In this document: positions 1,353-28,083 of the stretch, piece after piece
How positions within the stretch are numbered: position 1 is the stretch's first letter
How the letters are laid out: each line of letters starts with the position of its first letter
Assembly: GCA_018058545.1 (NCBI GenBank)
Contig: JAGOZU010000022.1
Span: 1 to 40,268, forward strand
Origin: Promineifilum sp.
GTDB lineage: Bacteria > Chloroflexota > Anaerolineae > Promineifilales > Promineifilaceae
Reading direction: 5' to 3'
Length of the DNA stretch: 40,268 nucleotides
Position numbers and translations under genes: made by a program
The notes under the pieces: generated by a model
The model's database searches: none
What the model was told of the DNA's origin: nothing
Seen by the model: the letters and a program-made list of their open reading frames with translations, nothing else

Positions 1353-2405
1353 TTGATCACGGAGAACTCGACCACCCCGGCAAGCGAATCATGGCGACGA
1401 TACCTACCGTGGCTCAATCTTGGTCTGGCGGTGTTCCTCGCCGTCGCTGGATTATGGTTCCTCTCCAGTCGCGTCAGCCTGGCGGCCGTCGGCACGGTAC
1501 TCATGGAAGCATCGCCGGGCTACATCGCTCTGGCCGCGGCTATCATGGTGCTGACGATCGTTCTCAAGGCGTGGCGCTGGCAATTGATGTTTCGGCCGCC
1601 GGTTTCTCTCGGCGCGGCCTTTTGGGCAGCAGCGCTTGGCCAGTATGTGAACCTGGTAATCCCCTTTCTGCGGCTGGGCGAGGTGGCCCGCCTCTACGCC
1701 TTGAATCAGGAGAGCGGCACGAGGGGCGGCCGCGCGCTGGGCACATTGGTAGTGGAAAAAACGCTTGACCTTATCTTCTTTGGCCTGACGATCGTCTTCG
1801 TCCTGCCTTTCGTCGTTTTACCCGATTTCGCCGAGCGGCCGGGCGCGTTGTCGCTGATCCTGCCCCTGGCCTTTCTGGCCGTGCTTTATCTGCTGGCCTT
1901 TCAAACAGATACCGTCATCCGGCTCTGGCGCAAGGTCATCCGCCCTCTGCCCCAACGTCTTCAGGGCTGGTTGATCAAGCTTGCGGTCGCGGGACTGGAG
2001 GGGTTGGTCGCGCTGCGAGACCGTCGCCTGACCTTGTGGCTGCTGGTTCTCAGCCTGATGATCGCCGTTTTGGCGGTCGCCTTGCCTTACAGCCTCTTTC
2101 CGGCTCTCCATTTGCCCTTTACCCTGCTGGACGCGGCGCTGATCCACATCGTCGTCACCATCGCCATCGTGCCGCCCAGCACCCCGGCCAAGATAGGCGT
2201 CCTCAACGGGGCGGCCGCGCTGGCCTTATGGCAGCTTGGCCTGACGGACGAGAGCGCTATCGCCGGTTACGCGATCCTGTTGTATCTGGTCGTCGTCGTC
2301 CCCCAGCTCATCCTGGGCCTGATCGCCGCCTCGCGCAGCAAATGGCGATGGCAAAGCGCCATGACGCCCGCCGGTCACGCCGCCGGCGAATCCTCGCTCC
2401 CATGA
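1353..2405 (+). CDS. Lysylphosphatidylglycerol synthase-type transmembrane protein (UPF0104 family)
   Basis: The 350-residue protein has about eight to nine hydrophobic helices and the family features of the LPG-synthase membrane domain: an early WRWQLMF segment, the segment AALGQYVNLVIPFLRLGEVARLY near residues 91-114, and a late VTIAIVPPSTPAKIGVLNGAA segment. Proteins of this fold act at the cytoplasmic membrane as flippases or membrane partners for lipid-linked substrates, often beside glycosyltransferases. The exact substrate cannot be read here. The start is a TTG at 1353; no in-frame ATG precedes the first membrane helix. Its stop overlaps the next gene's ATG by four bases (ATGA), so the two are translationally coupled. 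Confidence 0.88.
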   Translation: MITENSTTPASESWRRYLPWLNLGLAVFLAVAGLWFLSSRVSLAAVGTVLMEASPGYIALAAAIMVLTIVLKAWRWQLMFRPPVSLGAAFWAAALGQYVNLVIPFLRLGEVARLYALNQESGTRGGRALGTLVVEKTLDLIFFGLTIVFVLPFVVLPDFAERPGALSLILPLAFLAVLYLLAFQTDTVIRLWRKVIRPLPQRLQGWLIKLAVAGLEGLVALRDRRLTLWLLVLSLMIAVLAVALPYSLFPALHLPFTLLDAALIHIVVTIAIVPPSTPAKIGVLNGAAALALWQLGLTDESAIAGYAILLYLVVVVPQLILGLIAASRSKWRWQSAMTPAGHAAGESSLP

Positions 2406-4024
2406 CAGCCGAAGTATCTGTCATCGTCCCCGCCTATAACGCCGAAAGTACCATCGAGGCCTGCGTGGCCGCCTTGCAAGGCCAACAGTTCGACCGGCCG
2501 TATGAAATCATCGTCGTCGATGACGGATCGACGGATACCACGGCCGCGCGGGCCGCGGAAGCCGGAGCCACTGTGATCACTACGGGGCGTGGCCGACCGG
2601 CAGCGGCCCGAAACGCCGGCATCCGCGCCGCATCGGGGGCGATCATCTGCTGCACCGACGCCGACTGTGTGCCCCATCCCGACTGGCTGCGTCAAATGTG
2701 CCTGCCCTTTGATGATCGGAAAATCGCCGCCTGCAAGGGAATTTATGCAACCCGCCAGCGCTCGCTCGTCGCGCGTTTCGTCCAGCTGGAGTACGAAGAT
2801 AAATACGATCTCCTGCGCCTGCATGAAGCGATTGACTTCATCGACACCTATTCGGCCGCTTATCGCCGCGACATCCTGTTGGACAATGGCGGATTCGATG
2901 AACGGTTCGACTATCTCGAAGATCAGGAGCTTTCTTTCCGGCTGGCCGAGCGCGGCTATCGCCTGATGTTCCAGGAAACGGCCGTCGTCGATCATCTCCA
3001 TAGCGCCACACCGGCCACCTATCTGCGCAAGAAGATGACCATCGGCTATTGGAAGGCCCAGGTCGTCCGTCGTTTTCCGGGCAAGGCGGCCGGGGATTCG
3101 CACACACCCCGAGTGATGAAGATCCAGATGCTGTTGGTCATGGCTTTCGTCGCCGCTCTGACCGTGGCGACGCTCGCCATAGTCGGAGGATTCGGCCGTT
3201 GGGGAAGCACGATATGGCTATCCCTGCTATTGCCCATCGCCCTGATACCGGCCTTCCTGGCCACAACTATCCCGTTCATCCGCAAGGCATGGAGCAAGGA
3301 TCGCGCCGTGGCCATCATCTCGCCGCTTTTGTTGTTCGGCCGGGCGGCCGCCCTGAGCGTGGGTTATGTGTTGGGTGTCATTTGGCCGCGCCGTGACATC
3401 AGCTCCGGAATCGCGCCCGGCAGCTTCAGATCTCCTCTCAAGAGGGGGCTGGACCTGTTTGGGGCGACACTCGGCCTGTTATTCACGTTGGTTATATGGC
3501 CTCTCATCGCCCTGCTAATTAAACTGGACTCCAAAGGGCCGGTTTTGTTCAAGCAAGAGCGGGTCGGCGAGCATGGCCGGACGTTCATCATGTATAAATT
3601 CCGAACGATGCAGGTTGACGCGGCCGAACGCTGGCCGGAACTGGTGACATCCCTCGGCTTGACCGAACCGGTGCTCAAACTGGCGGATGATCCGCGCCTC
3701 ACTTCTGCCGGTCGCTTCCTGCGTCGCTGGAGCCTGGATGAGTTGCCCCAGTTCTGGAACGTGATCCGGGGCGACATGAGCCTGGTGGGTCCGCGTCCGG
3801 AAGAGCCGCGCATCGTGGCCTACTATTCCGACCGGCATCGGCGGCGGCTGGCCGTCAGGCCGGGGATGACGGGGCCGATGCAGATCAACAACCGGGCCGA
3901 TCTGCCTCTGGATGAGCGGGTCGATCTGGACCTGGACTATATCGAGCATTACTCTTTCCGTCGCGATCTAGGCATACTGGCGCGCACCATCCCGGTTGTG
4001 CTGCGCGGCAAGGGAGCTCGTTAA
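2402..4024 (+). CDS. Fused GT2 glycosyltransferase and polyprenyl-phosphate phosphoglycosyl transferase
   Basis: This 540-residue protein joins two enzymes. Residues 1-225 are a GT-A family 2 transferase, with VVDDGS at 38-43, a DAD metal motif at 86-88 and an ED pair at 173-174. Two to three hydrophobic helices follow (about 240-330). Residues 345-540 are a bacterial sugar transferase (monotopic phosphoglycosyl transferase): KRGLDLFGATLG re-entrant helix, KFRTM at 399-403, the catalytic Asp-Glu dyad in SLDELPQ (D446, E447) and LVGPRP. The second half should transfer a sugar phosphate from a nucleotide sugar to a polyprenyl phosphate; the first half could add the next sugar. The open frame extends upstream to 2036, but the ATG at 2402 overlapping the previous stop is the credible start. 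No frameshift is needed, so this is a true fusion. Confidence 0.92.
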   Translation: MTAEVSVIVPAYNAESTIEACVAALQGQQFDRPYEIIVVDDGSTDTTAARAAEAGATVITTGRGRPAAARNAGIRAASGAIICCTDADCVPHPDWLRQMCLPFDDRKIAACKGIYATRQRSLVARFVQLEYEDKYDLLRLHEAIDFIDTYSAAYRRDILLDNGGFDERFDYLEDQELSFRLAERGYRLMFQETAVVDHLHSATPATYLRKKMTIGYWKAQVVRRFPGKAAGDSHTPRVMKIQMLLVMAFVAALTVATLAIVGGFGRWGSTIWLSLLLPIALIPAFLATTIPFIRKAWSKDRAVAIISPLLLFGRAAALSVGYVLGVIWPRRDISSGIAPGSFRSPLKRGLDLFGATLGLLFTLVIWPLIALLIKLDSKGPVLFKQERVGEHGRTFIMYKFRTMQVDAAERWPELVTSLGLTEPVLKLADDPRLTSAGRFLRRWSLDELPQFWNVIRGDMSLVGPRPEEPRIVAYYSDRHRRRLAVRPGMTGPMQINNRADLPLDERVDLDLDYIEHYSFRRDLGILARTIPVVLRGKGAR

Positions 4025-4032
4025 CCGTCGAT

Positions 4033-5538
4033 ATGGCCCAATTCCACGAGATAGCGCAACCATCCCTCAGCCCTGCCCACGAGGCAACTTCCGGTGACCC
4101 GGCCAGATTTCACCGACAGGCGTTGGCTTCCGCTCTCATCGCACTGGGCGTCTACGTCCTCACCCTGGCGCCCGATCTGAGTTGGGCCAACGGAGCCTAT
4201 GACGGAGCCGAACTCATCACCGCCTCGGTGACGCTGGGGATTCCTCACCCGCCGGGGTACCCGACCTATGTCCTGTTGGGAAAACTATTTAGCCTGCTGC
4301 CGATGGGGACCGTGGCGTTCCGCTACAATCTGTTCTCGGCCATCTGCGCGGCCGCGGCCGTGGGTCTGGTCGTATTGACCATTGGCGCTCTACAGCCCCG
4401 GATACGGCCGGCGGCGGCCGTGAGCGCCGCGTTGCTCTTCGGCTTTACCCCTCTGGTTTGGAGCCAGGCCGTTGTCGCCGAGGTGTATAGCCTGAACCTG
4501 CTCATGATCGCAGCCTTCCTGCTGGTCTGGAGCCGGCGGGGAGCGGGCGCCTCAAGCAGCTTGCTGCTCGGTCTGGCCATCACAACGCACCTGACATCCC
4601 TCTTCTGGCTGCCGGCGTTCTTCATCAGCGGCCGTCGTCAGTGGAGTAGGATAGCCGTCGGGCTGGCGCTGGGCCTGTCGCCGTTGCTGCTCTTGCCCTG
4701 GCTGGCAGCGGGCGATAGCGCAATCATCTGGGGACGGCCGACCAATTCGGCCGGATGGTGGCAGCTTGTCAGCGGGCAGCTTTACGCGGCCTATTTCCAG
4801 CCGGCGATCGACGCCGAGCGTTGGCTCAACCTGCTACAGGCAGTCGCACTTGGGCCGGCAGCTTTTCTGGCCGGGGCCGGTCTGCGTGGCTATCCATCCA
4901 ATGAAGATGAACACCTGCACGTCCATGCGGCAGGGACTATTTCCCGTCCGACGCCGATCCTCCTGGCCGCGACGTCGCTCCTCTATATCGCGTTTTCTCT
5001 CTCGTACAACACCTCGGACGCGGCGATTTTGCTTCTGCCTGTGTTTCTGATCCTGGCTCTGCTCGTCGCGCCCATGTTGCAGCGGCCGGGCGCGGCCGCC
5101 CTTCTGCTCCCACTCGTTCTGGTGCTTCTGACCTATGGCGCGCGCGATCTGCGGCGGCAGCCAACAGCGCGCACATATGCGGCAGATATCCTGCGATCTG
5201 CCCCGGAAAACGCGATCTTGCTCACGCCCGGCGATCACACTATCTTTACGCTCTTGTACTTCCAGCAAGTGGAAGGGTATCGGCCCGATTTAAGCCTGGT
5301 GGATGGTAATTTGTTCGCGTTCGACTGGTACCGAAACCGCCTTCTGGAGCGATACCCGGACATAGTGATGCCGACGGGAGATGATCTGGTCGCACTGCGT
5401 CTTGAAAACAAAAGCAAACGGCCTTTTTGCCTGGTGGGTCTTGTTTCTTCGTCGGTGCCACCCATCTCCATGACCGGCGGCCGCTTTGAGACAGGGGACG
5501 GCGCACCTTATGTTTTATGCGCCGAGGAAGCAAATTGA
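4033..5538 (+). CDS. DUF2723 family GT-C membrane glycosyltransferase-like protein
   Basis: The 501-residue product has about ten membrane helices. The first extracytoplasmic loop holds the family signature: YDGAELITA at about residues 56-64 with acidic residues D57 and E60, and GIPHPPGYPTY at 69-79. This matches DUF2723, a family related to protein O-mannosyltransferases that use polyprenyl-phosphate sugars. The soluble C-terminal part (about 380-501) contains ENAILLTPGDHTIF, typical of the family. The enzyme would act on the outer face of the cytoplasmic membrane, but donor and acceptor are not known. It follows the fusion gene by eight bases and overlaps the following gene. Confidence 0.88.
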   Translation: MAQFHEIAQPSLSPAHEATSGDPARFHRQALASALIALGVYVLTLAPDLSWANGAYDGAELITASVTLGIPHPPGYPTYVLLGKLFSLLPMGTVAFRYNLFSAICAAAAVGLVVLTIGALQPRIRPAAAVSAALLFGFTPLVWSQAVVAEVYSLNLLMIAAFLLVWSRRGAGASSSLLLGLAITTHLTSLFWLPAFFISGRRQWSRIAVGLALGLSPLLLLPWLAAGDSAIIWGRPTNSAGWWQLVSGQLYAAYFQPAIDAERWLNLLQAVALGPAAFLAGAGLRGYPSNEDEHLHVHAAGTISRPTPILLAATSLLYIAFSLSYNTSDAAILLLPVFLILALLVAPMLQRPGAAALLLPLVLVLLTYGARDLRRQPTARTYAADILRSAPENAILLTPGDHTIFTLLYFQQVEGYRPDLSLVDGNLFAFDWYRNRLLERYPDIVMPTGDDLVALRLENKSKRPFCLVGLVSSSVPPISMTGGRFETGDGAPYVLCAEEAN

Positions 5539-7586
5539 CTTCAGGAAATCGATATTCATCACCGCCATCCTGGCCGGACGAGACGCCCGAGCCGGCCAAC
5601 CAACCGGCATCCGGCGCTCCAACCAGACGGATCGCTCGCATTTTGCTGCTCTTCGGCCTGGCGATTCTGCTGTTCTGGTTGGGCTTCAAGGCCTGGCGCG
5701 TCTATCAGGCGACACAATCGCTCATGACCGTCGAGGCCGAGGCGCGAGCGTTGATGGCTGGTGGAATCTCCCAGCTCGACCCCAACGCGGCCGAAGCGTT
5801 GGTGCTGGGCGCGCGATCCAACATCGCCATGCTGCACGATGAGTTGAGCTTCATCCGGCCGTTTGCCCCCTATCTCGGCTGGATCCCCAAACTGGGGCCG
5901 ACGCTCGTCGCTTCACCCTACTTGCTGGACATGGCCGATGCCGGGTCAGAGGCGGGTGCGCTAGCCGTCAGCAGCCTGAAACCGGCGCTGGCGATCTTCC
6001 AGCGCGACGATTTCAGCGCCATGCGGCTGGGTGAACTGCTGCCCGTATTTTCGGCCGCCGCGCCGGATTTGGAGGCCGCCACGGACGCGCTCCGGCGCTA
6101 TTCGGCCGCCAGAGAGGAACTGGATGGCGCCATCGAGGCCGAAGCGTTGCCGTGGCGCGTGCGCCAACTGCTGCAACTCTCGGACAAATGGATGCCGGCG
6201 GCCGAGGGCGGGCTGTCCCTGGCACCCTACCTGCCCGAACTGCTTGGGCAAAACGGCGTGCGACAATACCTCATCATGGCTCAGAATGAGGATGAATTGC
6301 GGGCCACAGGCGGCTTCCTGACCGGCGTGGGCCTGCTCACCGTCGAAAACGGTCAGATTCAAGACCTTGATTTCGGAGACGCCAATCAGGTCGACAATTG
6401 GCGAGAAAAGCCGTACGGATTCCCGCCTCAGCCATTTTATGATTTCATGGGGCTGGAATTATTCCTGTTCCGTGACGCCAACTACTGGCCGGATTTCCCC
6501 ACCTCCGCCCGGAAAGCGCTGGAACTCTATGCCTACGGCCGGGATGTTCCCCTGCCCGATGGCGCCATCGCCATCGATCAGGAGTTCATGCGTATTCTCG
6601 TCGATGCCACCGGCCCGGTGCCCATCCCTGGTACAGACCAGACCATTACGGCCGATAATCTGCTGCAAACATTAAGGCAAGCCCGTGACATTCAGGAAGG
6701 GCAAGAAGTTAGAGAGTGGGTAAACGATCGCAAGGCTTTCCTGAGCGGGTTCGCCGCGGCCATTCTGGCCAAGGTGGAGATGGATTTCGGCTCGATCGAT
6801 CCGGTCAAGCTGGCTGAGAGCATGACCGGAGCTATCCAAAACAGGCACCTGTCGATCTACATGCGCGATACCGAAATCGCCGGCGCTCTGGGCGCAACCG
6901 GATGGGATGGCCACCTTCCGCAGTCGCCGCCAGGAGATTTCTGGATGGCCGTCGATACCAATATGGGCTATAACAAAGCCAATATCCTGATCGAACGCGC
7001 CTTTACCTATGACGTCGCTTTGGGAAATCAGCCCGCGGCGGCGTTGACTATCGATTATCGCCACACCGGCCCGGCCGGCGAAGAACCGTGCATGCAAGGC
7101 GTGGAGGATGAGTTTGAATTGGCGGCCGATTATCTGGCTCTGGCCGATCAATGCTACTGGAACTTCCTGAGGGTATACGCACCTCTGGGCAGCAAGTTGC
7201 TCGATTCAAGTCACCATGTCGTGCCCAAGGAAACACTCCTTGTCAGCGACACTTGGGATAGCGATGGACAGGTGATCGATGATCTGCCGTGGTTGACGAC
7301 ATTCGCTAACTTTCTCCTGCTGCCGCGGGGCGAGACAGCGTCGGCTTACTTCCATTATGAGCTGCCGGCTGGAATCATTGAATCGGATGGCGCTGATTCG
7401 ATTTACAACCTGTCCATATATAAGCAACCCGGAACAAGGGCGGAGCCGTTACGACTGACGATCACCTTGCCCGAAGGCGTTTCGCCGCTGGAAACACATC
7501 CGGCTCCGGTGCAGGTCGGGGGGAATCGCCTTGTTTTTGACATAGAATTGAACGCCAATACCGAGATAAACATCCGCTATCGCTAA
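5535..7586 (+). CDS. DUF4012 domain protein, membrane-anchored
   Basis: The product is 683 residues from a TTG at 5535. I prefer this start because GAGGA at 5524-5528 lies six bases ahead and the TTG overlaps the previous stop (TTGA); an ATG at 5517 in the same frame lacks a ribosome site. A short Pro-rich cytoplasmic stretch precedes one membrane helix (about residues 32-52); the rest is predicted outside. The DUF4012 signature QNEDELRATGGFLTG lies near residue 255, followed by VENGQIQDL. DUF4012 proteins often sit in exopolysaccharide clusters and their biochemical activity is not established. The position between a GT-C enzyme and an SH3 protein supports an envelope glycan role. Confidence 0.85.
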   Translation: MTSGNRYSSPPSWPDETPEPANQPASGAPTRRIARILLLFGLAILLFWLGFKAWRVYQATQSLMTVEAEARALMAGGISQLDPNAAEALVLGARSNIAMLHDELSFIRPFAPYLGWIPKLGPTLVASPYLLDMADAGSEAGALAVSSLKPALAIFQRDDFSAMRLGELLPVFSAAAPDLEAATDALRRYSAAREELDGAIEAEALPWRVRQLLQLSDKWMPAAEGGLSLAPYLPELLGQNGVRQYLIMAQNEDELRATGGFLTGVGLLTVENGQIQDLDFGDANQVDNWREKPYGFPPQPFYDFMGLELFLFRDANYWPDFPTSARKALELYAYGRDVPLPDGAIAIDQEFMRILVDATGPVPIPGTDQTITADNLLQTLRQARDIQEGQEVREWVNDRKAFLSGFAAAILAKVEMDFGSIDPVKLAESMTGAIQNRHLSIYMRDTEIAGALGATGWDGHLPQSPPGDFWMAVDTNMGYNKANILIERAFTYDVALGNQPAAALTIDYRHTGPAGEEPCMQGVEDEFELAADYLALADQCYWNFLRVYAPLGSKLLDSSHHVVPKETLLVSDTWDSDGQVIDDLPWLTTFANFLLLPRGETASAYFHYELPAGIIESDGADSIYNLSIYKQPGTRAEPLRLTITLPEGVSPLETHPAPVQVGGNRLVFDIELNANTEINIRYR

Positions 7587-7626
7587 TGGTCATGAGGAGT
7601 TGCAATCGGTTTGGAGGAAAATGAAG

Positions 7627-8706
7627 ATGTTTAAACGCAACCTGTTAACTATCCTGATGGCGCTGATCATGGCGTTCGTCCTCGCCGGTATTCCTGCGGT
7701 TTGGGCGCAAACTATCCCGCCACGAACGCCGACCCCCGATCCGAATAAGCCTGGCCCAACGCCATCCGCGACATCGGTCGATCCCGGCGCAAAACCTTCG
7801 CCCAATGCGACCGAGCCGTCCAGCCCCGGCCAGGGTGCCACTCCCGATGCGAGTGCCACCTCCGCACCCGGAGCCCCACCGGCCACGACCGCGCCGGGCA
7901 GCGGACCGGGATTGCCGGCAGCCACAGTTCCCTCCAGTCAACCGGGCACGGGACCGGGTGGTGTAAACCCGCCAGGCGCAGGCGGCTACGTGCCCGGCAC
8001 GGGACAGCAGCCCGGCACCGGCGCGGCTGGAACATGCGACGAGACGCCCTACGTCAAGGCGATTGCGACCGTGACCGTCTTTGCCGGGCCAGGTACAGAT
8101 TACCCGGTGGTCGCCGAACTCGGAGCCGAGGATATGCGGCCGATCATCGGCCGTCCCTTTTATGCCCCATGGTGGCAAATTCAATTTGACCAAGAGACGG
8201 CAGGATGGGTGGCTGACGCCGAAGTAAACGAATTCGGCAATACAGCTCTGGTTCCGCTGGTTGACACGCCGCCGATTAATGGCAATACCCCCACTCCCGG
8301 AGCGATCTGGAACCCGACGCCGCTGCCGCTATTAACCTGCGTGCCGACGCCGACACCAACGCCGTCTCCAACCCCTTCGGCCTTAACGGGCGAAGCCTCG
8401 CCATCCGGCGGCGCCGGAACCCAGGGCGATGCTCAGCCGGAGCCACCCGTGGGCATGGTCTCGGCCGAAGTTGGCGGCAGCGCGCCGGTGACCGGAGAGA
8501 CAGCCGAGACCTCCGATAGCCCGTCCGGCTCGGGCATTAGCTCGCGAAGTGCCGAAGCTTCCCGGGCCGCATCGCCCACCAGCGCGATGAATTTAATCCT
8601 GCCGCTGGCCGGTTTGGCGTTAATCAGCGGTGGCATCATCCTGGCCCTGACCTCGCGCAAACAGAGCGGGGCGAAGACGGACACTACCGACACCACCGTT
8701 AAATAA
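7627..8706 (+). CDS. Secreted SH3-like domain protein with Pro/Thr-rich linkers and C-terminal anchor
   Basis: The 359-residue protein starts with a signal peptide (MFKRN, then a hydrophobic core, ending AVWAQ), followed by about 100 residues rich in Pro, Thr, Gly and Ser. A compact domain at about residues 137-212 contains ATVTVFAGPGTDYPVVAELG and GWVADAEV, the pattern of a bacterial SH3-like (SH3b) fold. A second Pro/Thr stretch and a C-terminal helix (about 320-345) followed by SRK complete it. It would be displayed on the cell surface, perhaps binding cell wall or glycan. GGAGG at 7613-7617 is nine bases before the ATG at 7627 and only three before the ATG at 7621, so I chose 7627. The protein ends one base from the convergent gene. 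Confidence 0.82.
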   Translation: MFKRNLLTILMALIMAFVLAGIPAVWAQTIPPRTPTPDPNKPGPTPSATSVDPGAKPSPNATEPSSPGQGATPDASATSAPGAPPATTAPGSGPGLPAATVPSSQPGTGPGGVNPPGAGGYVPGTGQQPGTGAAGTCDETPYVKAIATVTVFAGPGTDYPVVAELGAEDMRPIIGRPFYAPWWQIQFDQETAGWVADAEVNEFGNTALVPLVDTPPINGNTPTPGAIWNPTPLPLLTCVPTPTPTPSPTPSALTGEASPSGGAGTQGDAQPEPPVGMVSAEVGGSAPVTGETAETSDSPSGSGISSRSAEASRAASPTSAMNLILPLAGLALISGGIILALTSRKQSGAKTDTTDTTVK

Positions 8707-21914: not shown

Positions 21915-23555
21915 TTAGTCGGGCAGCCGGATCAATAGAACCGACAGGTCAACCTCCCGATGCGGGTCGCCGTTGATGTGGAAACGATAGGCCAGCCGCG
22001 AGCCGCTGCGATAGCCTTCAAAGCCCAGGTAGCCGGGGTGATGGGGCATGGCCTGGACGATGGCGTTGATGATGAGCGACGGCTCCCGGTCGCGGATAAT
22101 CACCACGGCCACCGCGCTGGAATTGTCGCCGGTCAGCGAGCCCAGCAGGGAATCAACCGTCTGTAAATGAGCCTTCTGCCCATGCCAGGTGTTGCATTCG
22201 GCGACGAACACATTCCGGCCCGCGACTCGCACCAATATGTCGGAATTATTCGTCGTAGCGAATGCGCCATTGAGTCCGGCATCCGGCAAATCGGCGCGCA
22301 GCGCGTCCAGCAAAGTATCACGCAACGCTTCATCGCCTCGATGGTGATAGCTCTCCGGATCGCGCTCGATCGCTTGCCCAACATCCTCAGCGATCCCCAC
22401 CAGACGCTCGCCAAGATCCATACCCGGCATGGGGATCGCTCCGGCCACGGGCTGATCGGCACCATAGTAGGACGGCAACGCGGAAGGCATCGGCCGCGCC
22501 CTTTTGACCTGTTTCACATACTCCTGCAACCACTGATCGAACAAATGGCTGTCCGGCCACAGGCGATCCCCCGTCCGGGCCAGCACGCCATAATGACACA
22601 GCCGGGCGACGGCCTCATCGATCTCCGGTTGCTCATAGGGCAAGCGAGATACAGGCTGTTCCCGGGCCACGGCCGCCAGCACGTCCTCCTCCACGTCGCT
22701 GAAATTGCGCATCCATTGCTCGTAATACGGCCCCATCTCCGACACCAGCCGCTGTGTCACCTCGCGGGTATCAGGCTTGCGTCTCTGATGCTTGTGATTC
22801 AGCCAGACCGCGGCCATCGCTTGCACAAAAAACGGCAGCGTTCCCGCGATATGGCGCACATAAGCCACGTCGTCGTCATCGGCCGTCACCCCTACCCGCC
22901 CTGCCGGCACCTTCACCAGTTCGTCCAGTTCCGCCGGGCCAAGGCCGGAAAGGTAGATGGGTGTGGGATAGAAGATGTTGTAGAAAGGGGACGTAGGCGG
23001 CAGGCCGACGAACTTGCCCAATCGAAATAAATCCCAATAGGACGCCGTCACGTAGGCCAGCTCATAATCCCAAACGCCGGCCAGCGCGCGCAGCTCGACC
23101 ATGAAATCATCGCCGAAATTGGCCGTTCGCAACTGGTCGAATTCATCCATCATGAAGATGACGCGGCGGCCACTGAACTCGTAGAGTGTGGATTCAACCG
23201 TGTAGACATCGGCCGTCGTTCGGGAACGGTCGACACCGGCGGCCGCGCCCGGCAAGGCGTTCAGCAGCTTGTGGTGGACGCGCGTGTAGAAGTCGGCCGA
23301 AGTCTTGCAGGCCGAGACATCGACGTAGATCATCACATAGCGGTTCGAATCCGGCAGATGGGCCGCCATGACTTCGGGATGGGACACGTATTGCAAAAAC
23401 GACGTCTTGCCTGCCCGCCGCAAGCCCAACACGCTGACGCATTGAGCTTGCGGCCCGGCCAGCGCATCAAAGAACTGGCTCGCCTGTCCGGCGCGGCCAA
23501 AAAAGTCATTCGGCCGCTTCACCGGCGGGCCGACCACATAAGGCGTTCTCATCAT
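21915..23555 (-). CDS. P-loop ATPase with winged helix and C-terminal PD-(D/E)xK-like domain
   Basis: The 546-residue protein is a STAND/AAA_16-type ATPase: N-terminal TPYVVGPP...FFGR box, Walker A GLRRAGKTS at 44-52 (K50), Walker B VIFMMDEFDQL near 132-142, then a winged-helix-like segment at about 285-345. After a low-complexity linker, residues 403-546 resemble the restriction-endonuclease-like domains that read DILI...FIAECKFW: here SDILVRV (D439) and VFVAECNTW (E453). The usual lysine after E-x is N455, so nuclease activity may be lost. The final strands (VDLSVLLIRLP) also fit that family. Its ATG overlaps the stop of the upstream ATPase. Function is unknown; sensing or defence is possible but unproven. 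Confidence 0.8.
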   Translation of the reverse strand: MMRTPYVVGPPVKRPNDFFGRAGQASQFFDALAGPQAQCVSVLGLRRAGKTSFLQYVSHPEVMAAHLPDSNRYVMIYVDVSACKTSADFYTRVHHKLLNALPGAAAGVDRSRTTADVYTVESTLYEFSGRRVIFMMDEFDQLRTANFGDDFMVELRALAGVWDYELAYVTASYWDLFRLGKFVGLPPTSPFYNIFYPTPIYLSGLGPAELDELVKVPAGRVGVTADDDDVAYVRHIAGTLPFFVQAMAAVWLNHKHQRRKPDTREVTQRLVSEMGPYYEQWMRNFSDVEEDVLAAVAREQPVSRLPYEQPEIDEAVARLCHYGVLARTGDRLWPDSHLFDQWLQEYVKQVKRARPMPSALPSYYGADQPVAGAIPMPGMDLGERLVGIAEDVGQAIERDPESYHHRGDEALRDTLLDALRADLPDAGLNGAFATTNNSDILVRVAGRNVFVAECNTWHGQKAHLQTVDSLLGSLTGDNSSAVAVVIIRDREPSLIINAIVQAMPHHPGYLGFEGYRSGSRLAYRFHINGDPHREVDLSVLLIRLPD

Positions 23556-24517
23556 TGGGATGCTCCCAGCAAAACAGACGGCAATTGAAAATTCCAGCCG
23601 GACAATTCTTCGCCCAACCGGTCGCGAGTGAAGCCTTCCTGCTCCAGCGCGCGCAAGACATGCTCGACGTCGGCCTGCCGGACAGGCTCGCGTTGGCCAC
23701 GCCGGTTCATCAGACTGACCAAACGGTGGCAGATCGTCTGAATCAGATAGGGATGCCCAGCCGTCTGCCGCCAGATGATGTCGACGGCCGCGTCTTCATA
23801 GGGCAATTTCCCTTCAAGGGGCGTCCGCACCAACGCAGCAGTCCGGCCATAGTCCAGCATACCCAGCTCATAGCGCCCCATCAGATTGACGATGGGGTTC
23901 CAGAACAGCTCCAGCAAGCCCAATGCACCGCTGATGAGGAACGTGATGCGGCGGCGATGCTGAAACTGAGAGCGCAGGAAGGGCAGGATGTCGGGACTTA
24001 GCGATCCGCCTTCAATGCCCGACCGGATCTGTTCAAATTCATCCAAGGCAATGAGGCAATGGTACTCATCCGGCAGGCTTTGCTCCAGATCGTCCAGAGT
24101 GAGGTCAAACAGATCAAAAGCCGATGTTGCGTCAGCCGTGCTGACCGGGTGACTACCCGAAGGCTCGACCTGCCGGCCAATGTCGCGAGCCAGACGACGC
24201 AGCCATTCATCGATCGGCCTCCCCGCGTATCGCTGCAAGTCGATATAAGCGGCGCGGATTGGCCGCACCGTATTCTCGCGCAATGACCGGCCGCGCTCCC
24301 CTTCGACCAGCTGGTACAACGTGGACGTTTTGCCGATGCGCCGCCGCCCGTAGAGCATCAGGGCGTTGGGTTGCCCGGTCGCGATCAGGTTCTCCTCAAG
24401 CCAAGTGAAGGCGTCGTCGCGACCGAAAAAGAGCGCCGACGAAGCCTTCGTCAACGGGCGGCCGACGATGTAAGGGTTGGCTATCAGGTTGCCGTTTCGC
24501 TCGGGCGACGGGTCCAT
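23552..24517 (-). CDS. P-loop ATPase, AAA_16/STAND type, shorter partner
   Basis: The 321-residue protein shares its N-terminal box (NPYIVGRP...LFFGR, about 14-33) with the downstream ATPase. Walker A is GRRRIGKTS at 57-65 (K63), Walker B CLIALDEFEQI at 154-164 with D159 and E160. GHPYLIQTICHRLV near 254-267 is the usual sensor-2-like lid motif of this family. It ends soon after the lid and has no winged helix or effector domain, so it could be a regulatory partner of the larger protein. GAGGAG lies about 12 bases before the ATG at 24517. It heads a two-gene unit with an ATGA overlap and a leader of about 200 bases. Confidence 0.82.
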   Translation of the reverse strand: MDPSPERNGNLIANPYIVGRPLTKASSALFFGRDDAFTWLEENLIATGQPNALMLYGRRRIGKTSTLYQLVEGERGRSLRENTVRPIRAAYIDLQRYAGRPIDEWLRRLARDIGRQVEPSGSHPVSTADATSAFDLFDLTLDDLEQSLPDEYHCLIALDEFEQIRSGIEGGSLSPDILPFLRSQFQHRRRITFLISGALGLLELFWNPIVNLMGRYELGMLDYGRTAALVRTPLEGKLPYEDAAVDIIWRQTAGHPYLIQTICHRLVSLMNRRGQREPVRQADVEHVLRALEQEGFTRDRLGEELSGWNFQLPSVLLGASQ

Positions 24518-26514: not shown

Positions 26515-28079
26515 CTAACCGACTCGCGACCCTGTTTCATCAGGCTGCCGGCCGCGCGCATCTTCAACCCAAAACCCGGGCCAAACAAGCAATTGTAACA
26601 GCCCCAGCATCACGCCCAAATGGACGTAAATATTATTCACGTAAAGTTTATCCACCAGATGATGTACCGCCAATGCCACCCATGCCGCCAAAAGTCCGAC
26701 GGCTACCCCACGCTCCGGCCACGCCAACCGCCGAATCAGCCATACGGATTGGCCCATCACGGCCAGCCAGAAGAACATATAGGCCAACAGACCAGGCAGG
26801 CCAACTTCGGCCAGAAGGTTGAGATAATAGTTATGGGCATGGCCAAGGGCCGCCGTGAAATTGATAAGCGCGTAATCGGCGTAAGCAGATTCGTAATTGC
26901 CGAATCCGACGCCGGTCCACAGATCATCGCGGGCCATATCCGTCGCGGCTTGCCAGTGCGCCAGCCGTTCCAGGACGGAGAAGTTGGCGTCGTTGATATC
27001 CACGCCGCGCACGTCGCCGAGGGTGAATTCATCCCGAAACCCGCCCAAACGGTCGATGACGGCTCGCGCCGGACCAATACCGGCCGTCGCGCCAAAGGAC
27101 AGCAGCGCCGACACCATGACCGCGGCGACAAGCAACAGCCCCAAGCCGCGCCGGACGTGACGGGTACTGAACAAGGCAAGGACGGCCACGCCGGCCAAAA
27201 ACCCCAGCCATGCCCCCCGGCTCCAGGACAAGACCAACCCCAATGAAGCCGCCACCGCGCAGACAAGGGTATAGATGAGCCAGCCCGAGAACGGCCGCAA
27301 ATGGTCGCTTTGAAGGCGGTCGTCTCCCGAGCGGCCGCGACGACGTTCCCGCCACACCGCCAGTAGGCCCATGACCGTCCCCAGCGCGAGCATGGCCGTC
27401 AGATTCATGTATCCGCCGAACGGATTAGGCTGCTCAAAGGTTCCGTAAGCCCGATAGAAACGGTCGAGGACCATGAAATGCTCCGGTCCGGTTCCGCGCA
27501 GGCCAAATTGCCAGATGCCGATGAGCGCCTGAACCAGCCCGGCCAGCAGGAGCATGGCCAGTGACAGGCGCATCACGGCCGGGTAGCTCGATGTTGGCCA
27601 TTCGGCGATGTCAAGGATAAGCCACACCAGCAGGGCTATCTCCAACCATTTCAGAAGCTCGGCCAGGCCGGGGGCGATGGCGTAGGCGTCCAGCAGAGAC
27701 AAGGCGGCAATGAAAAAGAACAGGAGCCAGGGCAGATTGAATGTGGTCGCGGGGATGGCCAATCGGCGACGCGCCAGACCTGCGCCGATCCAGGCCAACA
27801 GCGTCACCATGAGGGCGATCTGCCCGCTATCCAGGATCGGATTGCCCAGGATGACGCTCTCCAGCGCGCCAAACGGCCCCAGAAGGAGCGCCACACCCAG
27901 ACCGAACAGCGGCCGGGCCAGTGTGAGCAGCAGGATGGCCGGAAGGACGACCAAGCCCACAGCCGCCGGCAGCGGCAGGCGAGCGATGGCCCACGCCAGG
28001 ACGACGGATATGGCGATCAGCGCCGCTGTCGTCGGGAGCGATTTATCAGCAAACCGGGTCTCTGCGGATTTGGGTGAGA

Positions 28080-28083
<4 letters not shown>
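26515..28083 (-). CDS. O-antigen ligase/polymerase-like membrane protein (Wzy/WaaL superfamily)
   Basis: The 522-residue protein has about eleven to twelve membrane helices and a large outer loop containing the family segment [24 protein letters not shown], typical of the Wzy_C/O-antigen ligase domain, plus [11 protein letters not shown] earlier. These proteins act on polyprenyl-pyrophosphate-linked glycans at the outer face of the membrane, polymerising them or moving them to an acceptor; ligase and polymerase cannot be told apart here. The start is a TTG at 28083 that overlaps the decarboxylase stop (TTGA), the same coupling seen at 5535. It belongs to the minus-strand glycan operon. Confidence 0.88.

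Follow-up and report, generated by a model that had tools for sequence, protein, structure and literature searches.

The analyzed window, a 40,268-nt stretch of Promineifilum sp. DNA (assembly GCA_018058545.1, contig JAGOZU010000022.1, positions 1–40,268, forward strand), encodes at 2402–4024 (+) a 540-aa protein in which a family GT2 glycosyltransferase is followed, in one stop-free frame, by a monotopic phosphoglycosyl transferase (PGT). These coordinates run from an ATG through the stop codon. The frame stays open upstream of this ATG, for 751 codons in all, and homology places the probable start at 2402, where the ATG and the stop of the preceding gene overlap as ATGA. Pfam models match both halves: Glycos_transf_2 (PF00535) at residues 6–159 (E 3.7e-32) and Bac_transf (PF02397) at residues 347–534 (E 3.6e-63; 212.8 bits against a cut-off of 27).

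The fusion gene sits within a conserved cassette: LPG_synthase_TM, fusion, TMEM260-like, DUF4012. All four genes lie on the forward strand. The LPG_synthase_TM/flippase-like membrane protein (PF03706; 1353–2405, from an uncertain TTG start) overlaps the fusion by 4 bp, the gene for a TMEM260-like, GT-C-type membrane protein (PF11028 by Pfam; 4033–5538) starts 8 bp downstream of it, and the DUF4012 gene (PF13196 by Pfam; 5517–7586) overlaps the TMEM260-like gene. This spacing suggests that the four form a single operon. Upstream of the cassette, 606–908 and 915–1325 encode two small proteins with no Pfam match, which occupy the same place in two other genomes (G094 and G035; loci L039 and L058). 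Downstream, the gene at 7600–8706 has no Pfam match, and its SH3 label comes from a reading of the sequence.

By Pfam, structure alignment and residue inspection, the N-terminal half has the GT-A fold (residues 1–198; 2402–2995), a DxD motif (D86-A87-D88; 2657–2665) and an ED motif (E173-D174; 2918–2923), the latter being the general base region of inverting GT2 enzymes. D86, D88, E173 and D174 are kept in all 127 GT2 sequences compared (45/45 fused and 82/82 unfused rows). An amphipathic, interface-type helix follows in the AlphaFold2 model (residues 204–224; 3011–3073; mean of 5.6 K+R per sequence), then two transmembrane helices supported by the model, hydropathy and charges (residues 237–261 and 268–299; 3110–3298), a third hydrophobic helix carrying a conserved arginine, R314 (residues 301–327; 3302–3382), and a flexible linker (residues 328–342; 3383–3427) with pLDDT below 50 at residues 333–342. 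The PGT domain (residues 343–540; 3428–4021) begins with a helix of re-entrant type (343–376) and carries K347-R348, the catalytic dyad D446-E447 (3737–3742; checked in the alignment) and the GPRP residues G463–P466. The sequence-only reading of this locus had already placed DAD at 86–88 and DE at 446–447 within one frame, with membrane helices joining the domains; the residues are found at those positions, and the helices appear between GT2 and PGT in the model.

The AlphaFold2 model of the whole protein (mean pLDDT 88.7, pTM 0.71) was compared with known structures by VIA-align. Residues 2–329 align with Chlorella virus hyaluronan synthase (8snc; Z 26.4, rmsd 3.2, 307 aligned), and the GT2 unit with PcManGT (6yv7; Z 22.9) and BcsA (4p00; Z 21.7). 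Residues 337–535 align with WbaP, a large PGT (8t53; Z 21.1, rmsd 1.9, 38% identity, 160 residues), and the PGT half with PglC, a small PGT (8e37; Z 20.8, 37% identity, 178 residues). The first part thus models as a minimal cellulose/hyaluronan-synthase-like unit and the second as WbaP/PglC-like, with a predicted PGT fold and a putatively re-entrant helix 343–376. Like PcManGT, hyaluronan synthase and BcsA, the fusion pairs a GT-A domain with interface and membrane helices, from residue 1 or 2 to about 330; unlike them, it lacks QxxRW and continues into a PGT, and its GT2 unit has far fewer helices than hyaluronan synthase or BcsA. The absence of QxxRW, read directly from the full 540-aa sequence, led us to reject a processive synthase of the cellulose/hyaluronan type. 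The PGT fold and catalytic residues are shared with WbaP and PglC, but the fusion lacks the four-helix bundle and CoA-binding-like domain of large PGTs, the GT2 unit occupying their position.

The number of membrane spans matters because three true spans would place the PGT outside. Over 27 fused sequences, K+R came to 0.11 in the loop between the first two transmembrane helices, 2.67 after the second and 5.63 after the third hydrophobic helix. By the positive-inside rule, this distribution suggests that both enzyme domains are probably cytosolic, and the charges point to helix 301–327 being interfacial or re-entrant rather than spanning; the arrangement with three spanning helices and an external PGT is correspondingly weakened. 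R314 is kept in 44/45 fused and 77/82 unfused rows, the remaining five unfused rows having a gap or X at this position. The membrane region of PcManGT has been described as three antiparallel helices (PMC10569066).

Conservation and origin of the fusion

A search for proteins with the same domain order, which the sequence-only reading had proposed, returned, for 30 of 199 sampled class genomes (the source genome among them), one uninterrupted match running from the GT2 through the whole PGT. Twenty-nine of these matches span residues ≤6 to ≥538, and the other (G133) begins at residue 58; the 30 matches are 47–69% identical to the fusion protein, the source genome's own match aside. Partial matches occur in three further class genomes, two at contig ends (G112 and G180) and one with a degraded PGT (G086). 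Across a phylum sample of 151 genomes (E ≤ 1e-70), two continuous matches were found, in the source genome and in one genome outside the class (G334). Because continuous matches recur across class genomes, we conclude that the fusion is an old and real architecture, mainly of the Anaerolineae and their relatives. That an assembly or frameshift artefact joined two genes is vanishingly improbable: one same-genus genome (G201, the same sequence as L150) does have the halves in different frames, but the fusion is intact in four of eight same-genus genomes, and its conservation in 30/199 class genomes rules an artefact out. The fused frame of G133 (L065:8553–10097) has a different start from the other aligned fusions, and its first ~57 GT2 residues have no family match.

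Ten residues spanning both halves (D86, D88, E173, D174, K347, R348, D351, R441, R442 and D446) are invariant in an alignment of 27 fused proteins, which omits 4 (L054, L056, L068 and L070) of the 31 fused frames found in the regions fetched, G009 not being among those regions. Between the source sequence and G199, the closest intact pair, dN/dS was 0.116 for the GT2 half and 0.160 for the PGT half, most other pairs being near or beyond saturation. These values indicate that, in intact fusions, both halves are kept under purifying selection.

Homologues of the GT2 half adjoin a separate PGT in Nitrospirota (L163, L169 and L176), Planctomycetota (L173 and L200) and others, though loci outside the Chloroflexota were ranked by total match, which favors loci with a PGT, so that neighbor frequency there is not a rate. 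A Desulfobacterales chromosome (L201) carries the GT2 and a separate PGT as overlapping open frames. In the PGT tree (97 rows), one clade (SH-aLRT 96) holds all but one of the 44 fused domains together with two small PGTs (L150 and L160); its sister group (92) comprises the PGTs of L173, L181, L193, L200 and L201, all of them stand-alone proteins encoded beside this same GT2 in Planctomycetota, Desulfobacterales and two unassigned bacteria. This and the GT2 tree come from quick searches with SH-aLRT support only, from which identical GT2/PGT cores and PGT stretches shorter than 150 aa were dropped. Since the fused PGTs form one clade, sister to stand-alone PGTs beside GT2 genes, an ancestral adjacent pair was probably fused once in the Chloroflexota. 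The GT2 tree, with 127 rows, implies 16 switches of the fused label, or 14 with nine rows set aside (contig-end cuts, except L188, which is in fact unfused with adjacent PGT frames); if the fusion arose once, it must have been lost many times. Such a history, a single fusion and many later losses, fits both trees; alternatively, fusion may have occurred repeatedly or the GT2 half may have been exchanged.

The 44th fused PGT, from L191 (MAG AUK292), falls outside the fused clade on a long branch. Its 847-codon frame (L191:889–3429) has the same order as the fusion described here, the same GT2 unit and then a PGT, but the partner is a complete large PGT, and L191 probably represents a separate, independent fusion.

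Fate of the PGT half

The PGT half is less constant than the GT2 half. Eight genomes of the same genus include four with an intact fusion (G000, G094, G199 and G203), one (G201) with GT2 and PGT in adjacent, different frames and an intact PGT dyad, a split that a one-base sequencing error in the linker could explain, and one whose locus is cut by a contig end (G200). The other two retain remnants: in G035, a 352-aa GT2 gene is followed by a short, degraded PGT remnant lacking the middle of the domain, and in G202 an intact GT2 is followed by stops and a degraded PGT remnant. The possibility raised along with the sequence-only reading, that the halves are separate genes in close relatives and the frame an artefact, therefore holds for one of eight genomes as regards separate adjacent frames and fails as regards the source frame, which is no artefact; we reject the view that the halves are simply separate genes in close relatives, given one split, four fused loci, two remnants and one contig end.

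Decay also occurs with the frame still open. Three of 44 fused PGT rows (L067:9168–10778, L070:8067–9545 and L148:5836–7503) no longer carry the dyad or the GPRP arginine, showing altered dyads (DA, DV and QK) and an altered GPRP, and these domains are possible pseudoenzymes; in L070 and L148, only broken PGT matches remain. The catalytic Glu of L054 reads X owing to an ambiguous base, and L054 is therefore left out of the losses. That the GT2 is kept while the PGT is decayed, split or without its dyad suggests a GT2 function independent of the attached PGT. Most likely, the PGT half serves a purpose in the genomes that keep it but can be replaced, and the constant, indispensable half is the GT2. 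Another PGT of the same genome presumably takes over where the attached one is lost: the source genome has eight PF02397 genes, and each of six genomes searched has 5 to 10 PF02397 matches.

These losses bear on how the two halves might work together. They could act in one pathway at non-consecutive steps, with the GT2 working at a later stage, or on lipid that some other PGT has primed, and the fusion serving only to co-localize them. Both the repeated loss or inactivation of the PGT half with the GT2 kept and the availability of other PGTs would fit this arrangement; however, the recurrence of GT2–PGT gene adjacency across phyla and the second GT2 fusion, to a whole large PGT (L191), favor consecutive steps, and we judge it somewhat unlikely. 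A further possibility, which we regard as unlikely, is that the fusion, ancestrally a bifunctional primer, is an initiation module in turnover, its PGT being discarded or converted to a non-catalytic membrane anchor or regulator time and again across lineages while the GT2 uses lipid primed elsewhere, and that together with the LCP-like DUF4012 protein it defines an undescribed envelope-glycopolymer pathway of the Chloroflexota.

Possible role in lipid-linked glycan assembly

The cassette accompanies the GT2 with or without an attached PGT. Eighteen fused loci have 5 kb or more of flanking sequence on each side; at 17 of them, at least one cassette neighbor lies within 7 kb (LPG_synthase_TM at 11, TMEM260-like at 14 and DUF4012 at 14 of the 18), and 10 of 13 well-flanked unfused loci likewise have at least one (LPG_synthase_TM at 9, TMEM260-like at 8 and DUF4012 at 8). 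Its presence at both kinds of locus ties the cassette to the GT2 rather than to the fusion. Five of 28 unfused class loci have a separate PGT no more than 7 kb away, the 28 being the best-E-value part of the listed GT2-only matches plus two weaker ones (L097 and L098) and the same-genus L058; about 0.5 would be expected from PF02397 density (47 matches in about 32.2 Mb of six genomes), though glycan genes cluster anyway.

The DUF4012 protein may be an LCP-type ligase. Its model contains an LCP-like domain at about residues 246–461 and a C-terminal beta domain at 487–689, the latter resembling ribophorin/OST1 (6ezn; Z 12.5). LCP structures align with the model at Z 10.6 (5v8c) and Z 10.2 (6uex, LcpA with octaprenyl-PP-GlcNAc; rmsd 3.0, 165 aligned), scores that are tied with those of other folds; the top Foldseek PDB rows are inter-alpha-inhibitor, M1 peptidase and FMO chains, with LCP chains at E 0.003 to 0.014. 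When the DUF4012 and LCP profiles were compared, they gave a weak 41-column match (probability 9.7, E 0.0033). The gene is single-copy in each of three same-genus genomes searched. In Bifidobacterium longum, a DUF4012 gene comes after the priming PGT (PMC5412050), and a passage of another paper adds only a repeat of the DUF4012 annotation in Bifidobacterium (PMC6744442).

On balance, we favor a role for the fusion as a membrane-bound bifunctional enzyme that initiates a lipid-linked surface glycan, with the PGT priming, the GT2 extending, and the cassette exporting and attaching the product. The PGT half would prime polyprenyl phosphate with a sugar-1-phosphate, and the GT2 half would then add the next sugar or sugars, non-processively, to the lipid-PP-sugar. 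The cassette proteins (LPG_synthase_TM, TMEM260-like and DUF4012) would flip this product, or use it in a GT-C step, and attach it to the envelope. We infer both activities, the order of the steps, the identity of the acceptor, the flipping and the attachment. The proposal that the first two steps of lipid-linked glycan assembly occur in one protein, already made in the sequence-only reading, is plausible because GT2 and PGT are neighboring separate genes in other phyla and both domains are predicted to be cytosolic. What stands of that proposal is a conserved single-chain fusion with intact catalytic residues; the notion of an obligatory pair is weakened by PGT loss with the GT2 kept. The strongest support for a bifunctional enzyme is the recurrent pairing of this GT2 with a PGT, adjacent or fused, and the strongest objection is the repeated loss of the PGT.

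Alternatively, the GT2 might make a polyprenyl-P-sugar donor, in the style of dolichol-P-mannose synthase, for the TMEM260-like GT-C protein, with the PGT making the acceptor lipid. GT-C enzymes of this kind generally use polyprenyl-P-sugars, and a TMEM260-like gene lies beside the fusion at 14 of 18 well-flanked loci. However, polyprenyl-P-sugar synthases match no more than about residues 2–105, whereas the profiles of MftF (3–257) and EpsD (5–235) and the structures of hyaluronan synthase, PcManGT and BcsA cover the whole GT2 unit. Because the synthase matches stop near residue 105, donor synthesis is less likely than a bifunctional initiating enzyme, and we consider it very unlikely.

Fusions of glycosyltransferases to PGTs are a known class, to which the present protein belongs: O'Toole and colleagues reportedly described GT–PGT fusions in 2021, with GTs among the common fusions in their monoPGT network. 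Bi-PGTs have functional domains attached N- or C-terminally to the monoPGT core (PMC10942596, eLife 2024). The fusion likewise couples its PGT core to another functional domain in a single chain, at the N terminus; its GT2 partner with membrane helices of its own, its conservation within a DUF4012 cassette in the Anaerolineae and its recurrent PGT loss set it apart. The GT2–PGT family is undescribed in the open-access literature searched, and a description may exist elsewhere; the available portions of two further articles contain nothing on GT–PGT fusions (PMC11340318 and PMC12802240).

Fused enzymes serve as an argument for the physical coupling of two pathway steps, and the occurrence of intact, split and decayed fusions at the same locus in one genus makes GT2–PGT coupling directly testable. 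The locus further connects the GT2, the PGT and a TMEM260-like protein with the uncharacterized DUF4012 family as parts of a single candidate pathway for envelope glycans in the Chloroflexota, and specialists may find the PGT-loss series and the DUF4012 link worth following.

Elsewhere in the window, a pair of neighboring genes (21915–24517, −), whose products have nSTAND2/AAA and ATPase_2 domains, lies near a Cellulase-like gene. A further glycan gene, encoding a Wzy_C/O-antigen-ligase-like membrane protein (26515–28083, −), lies far from the cassette.
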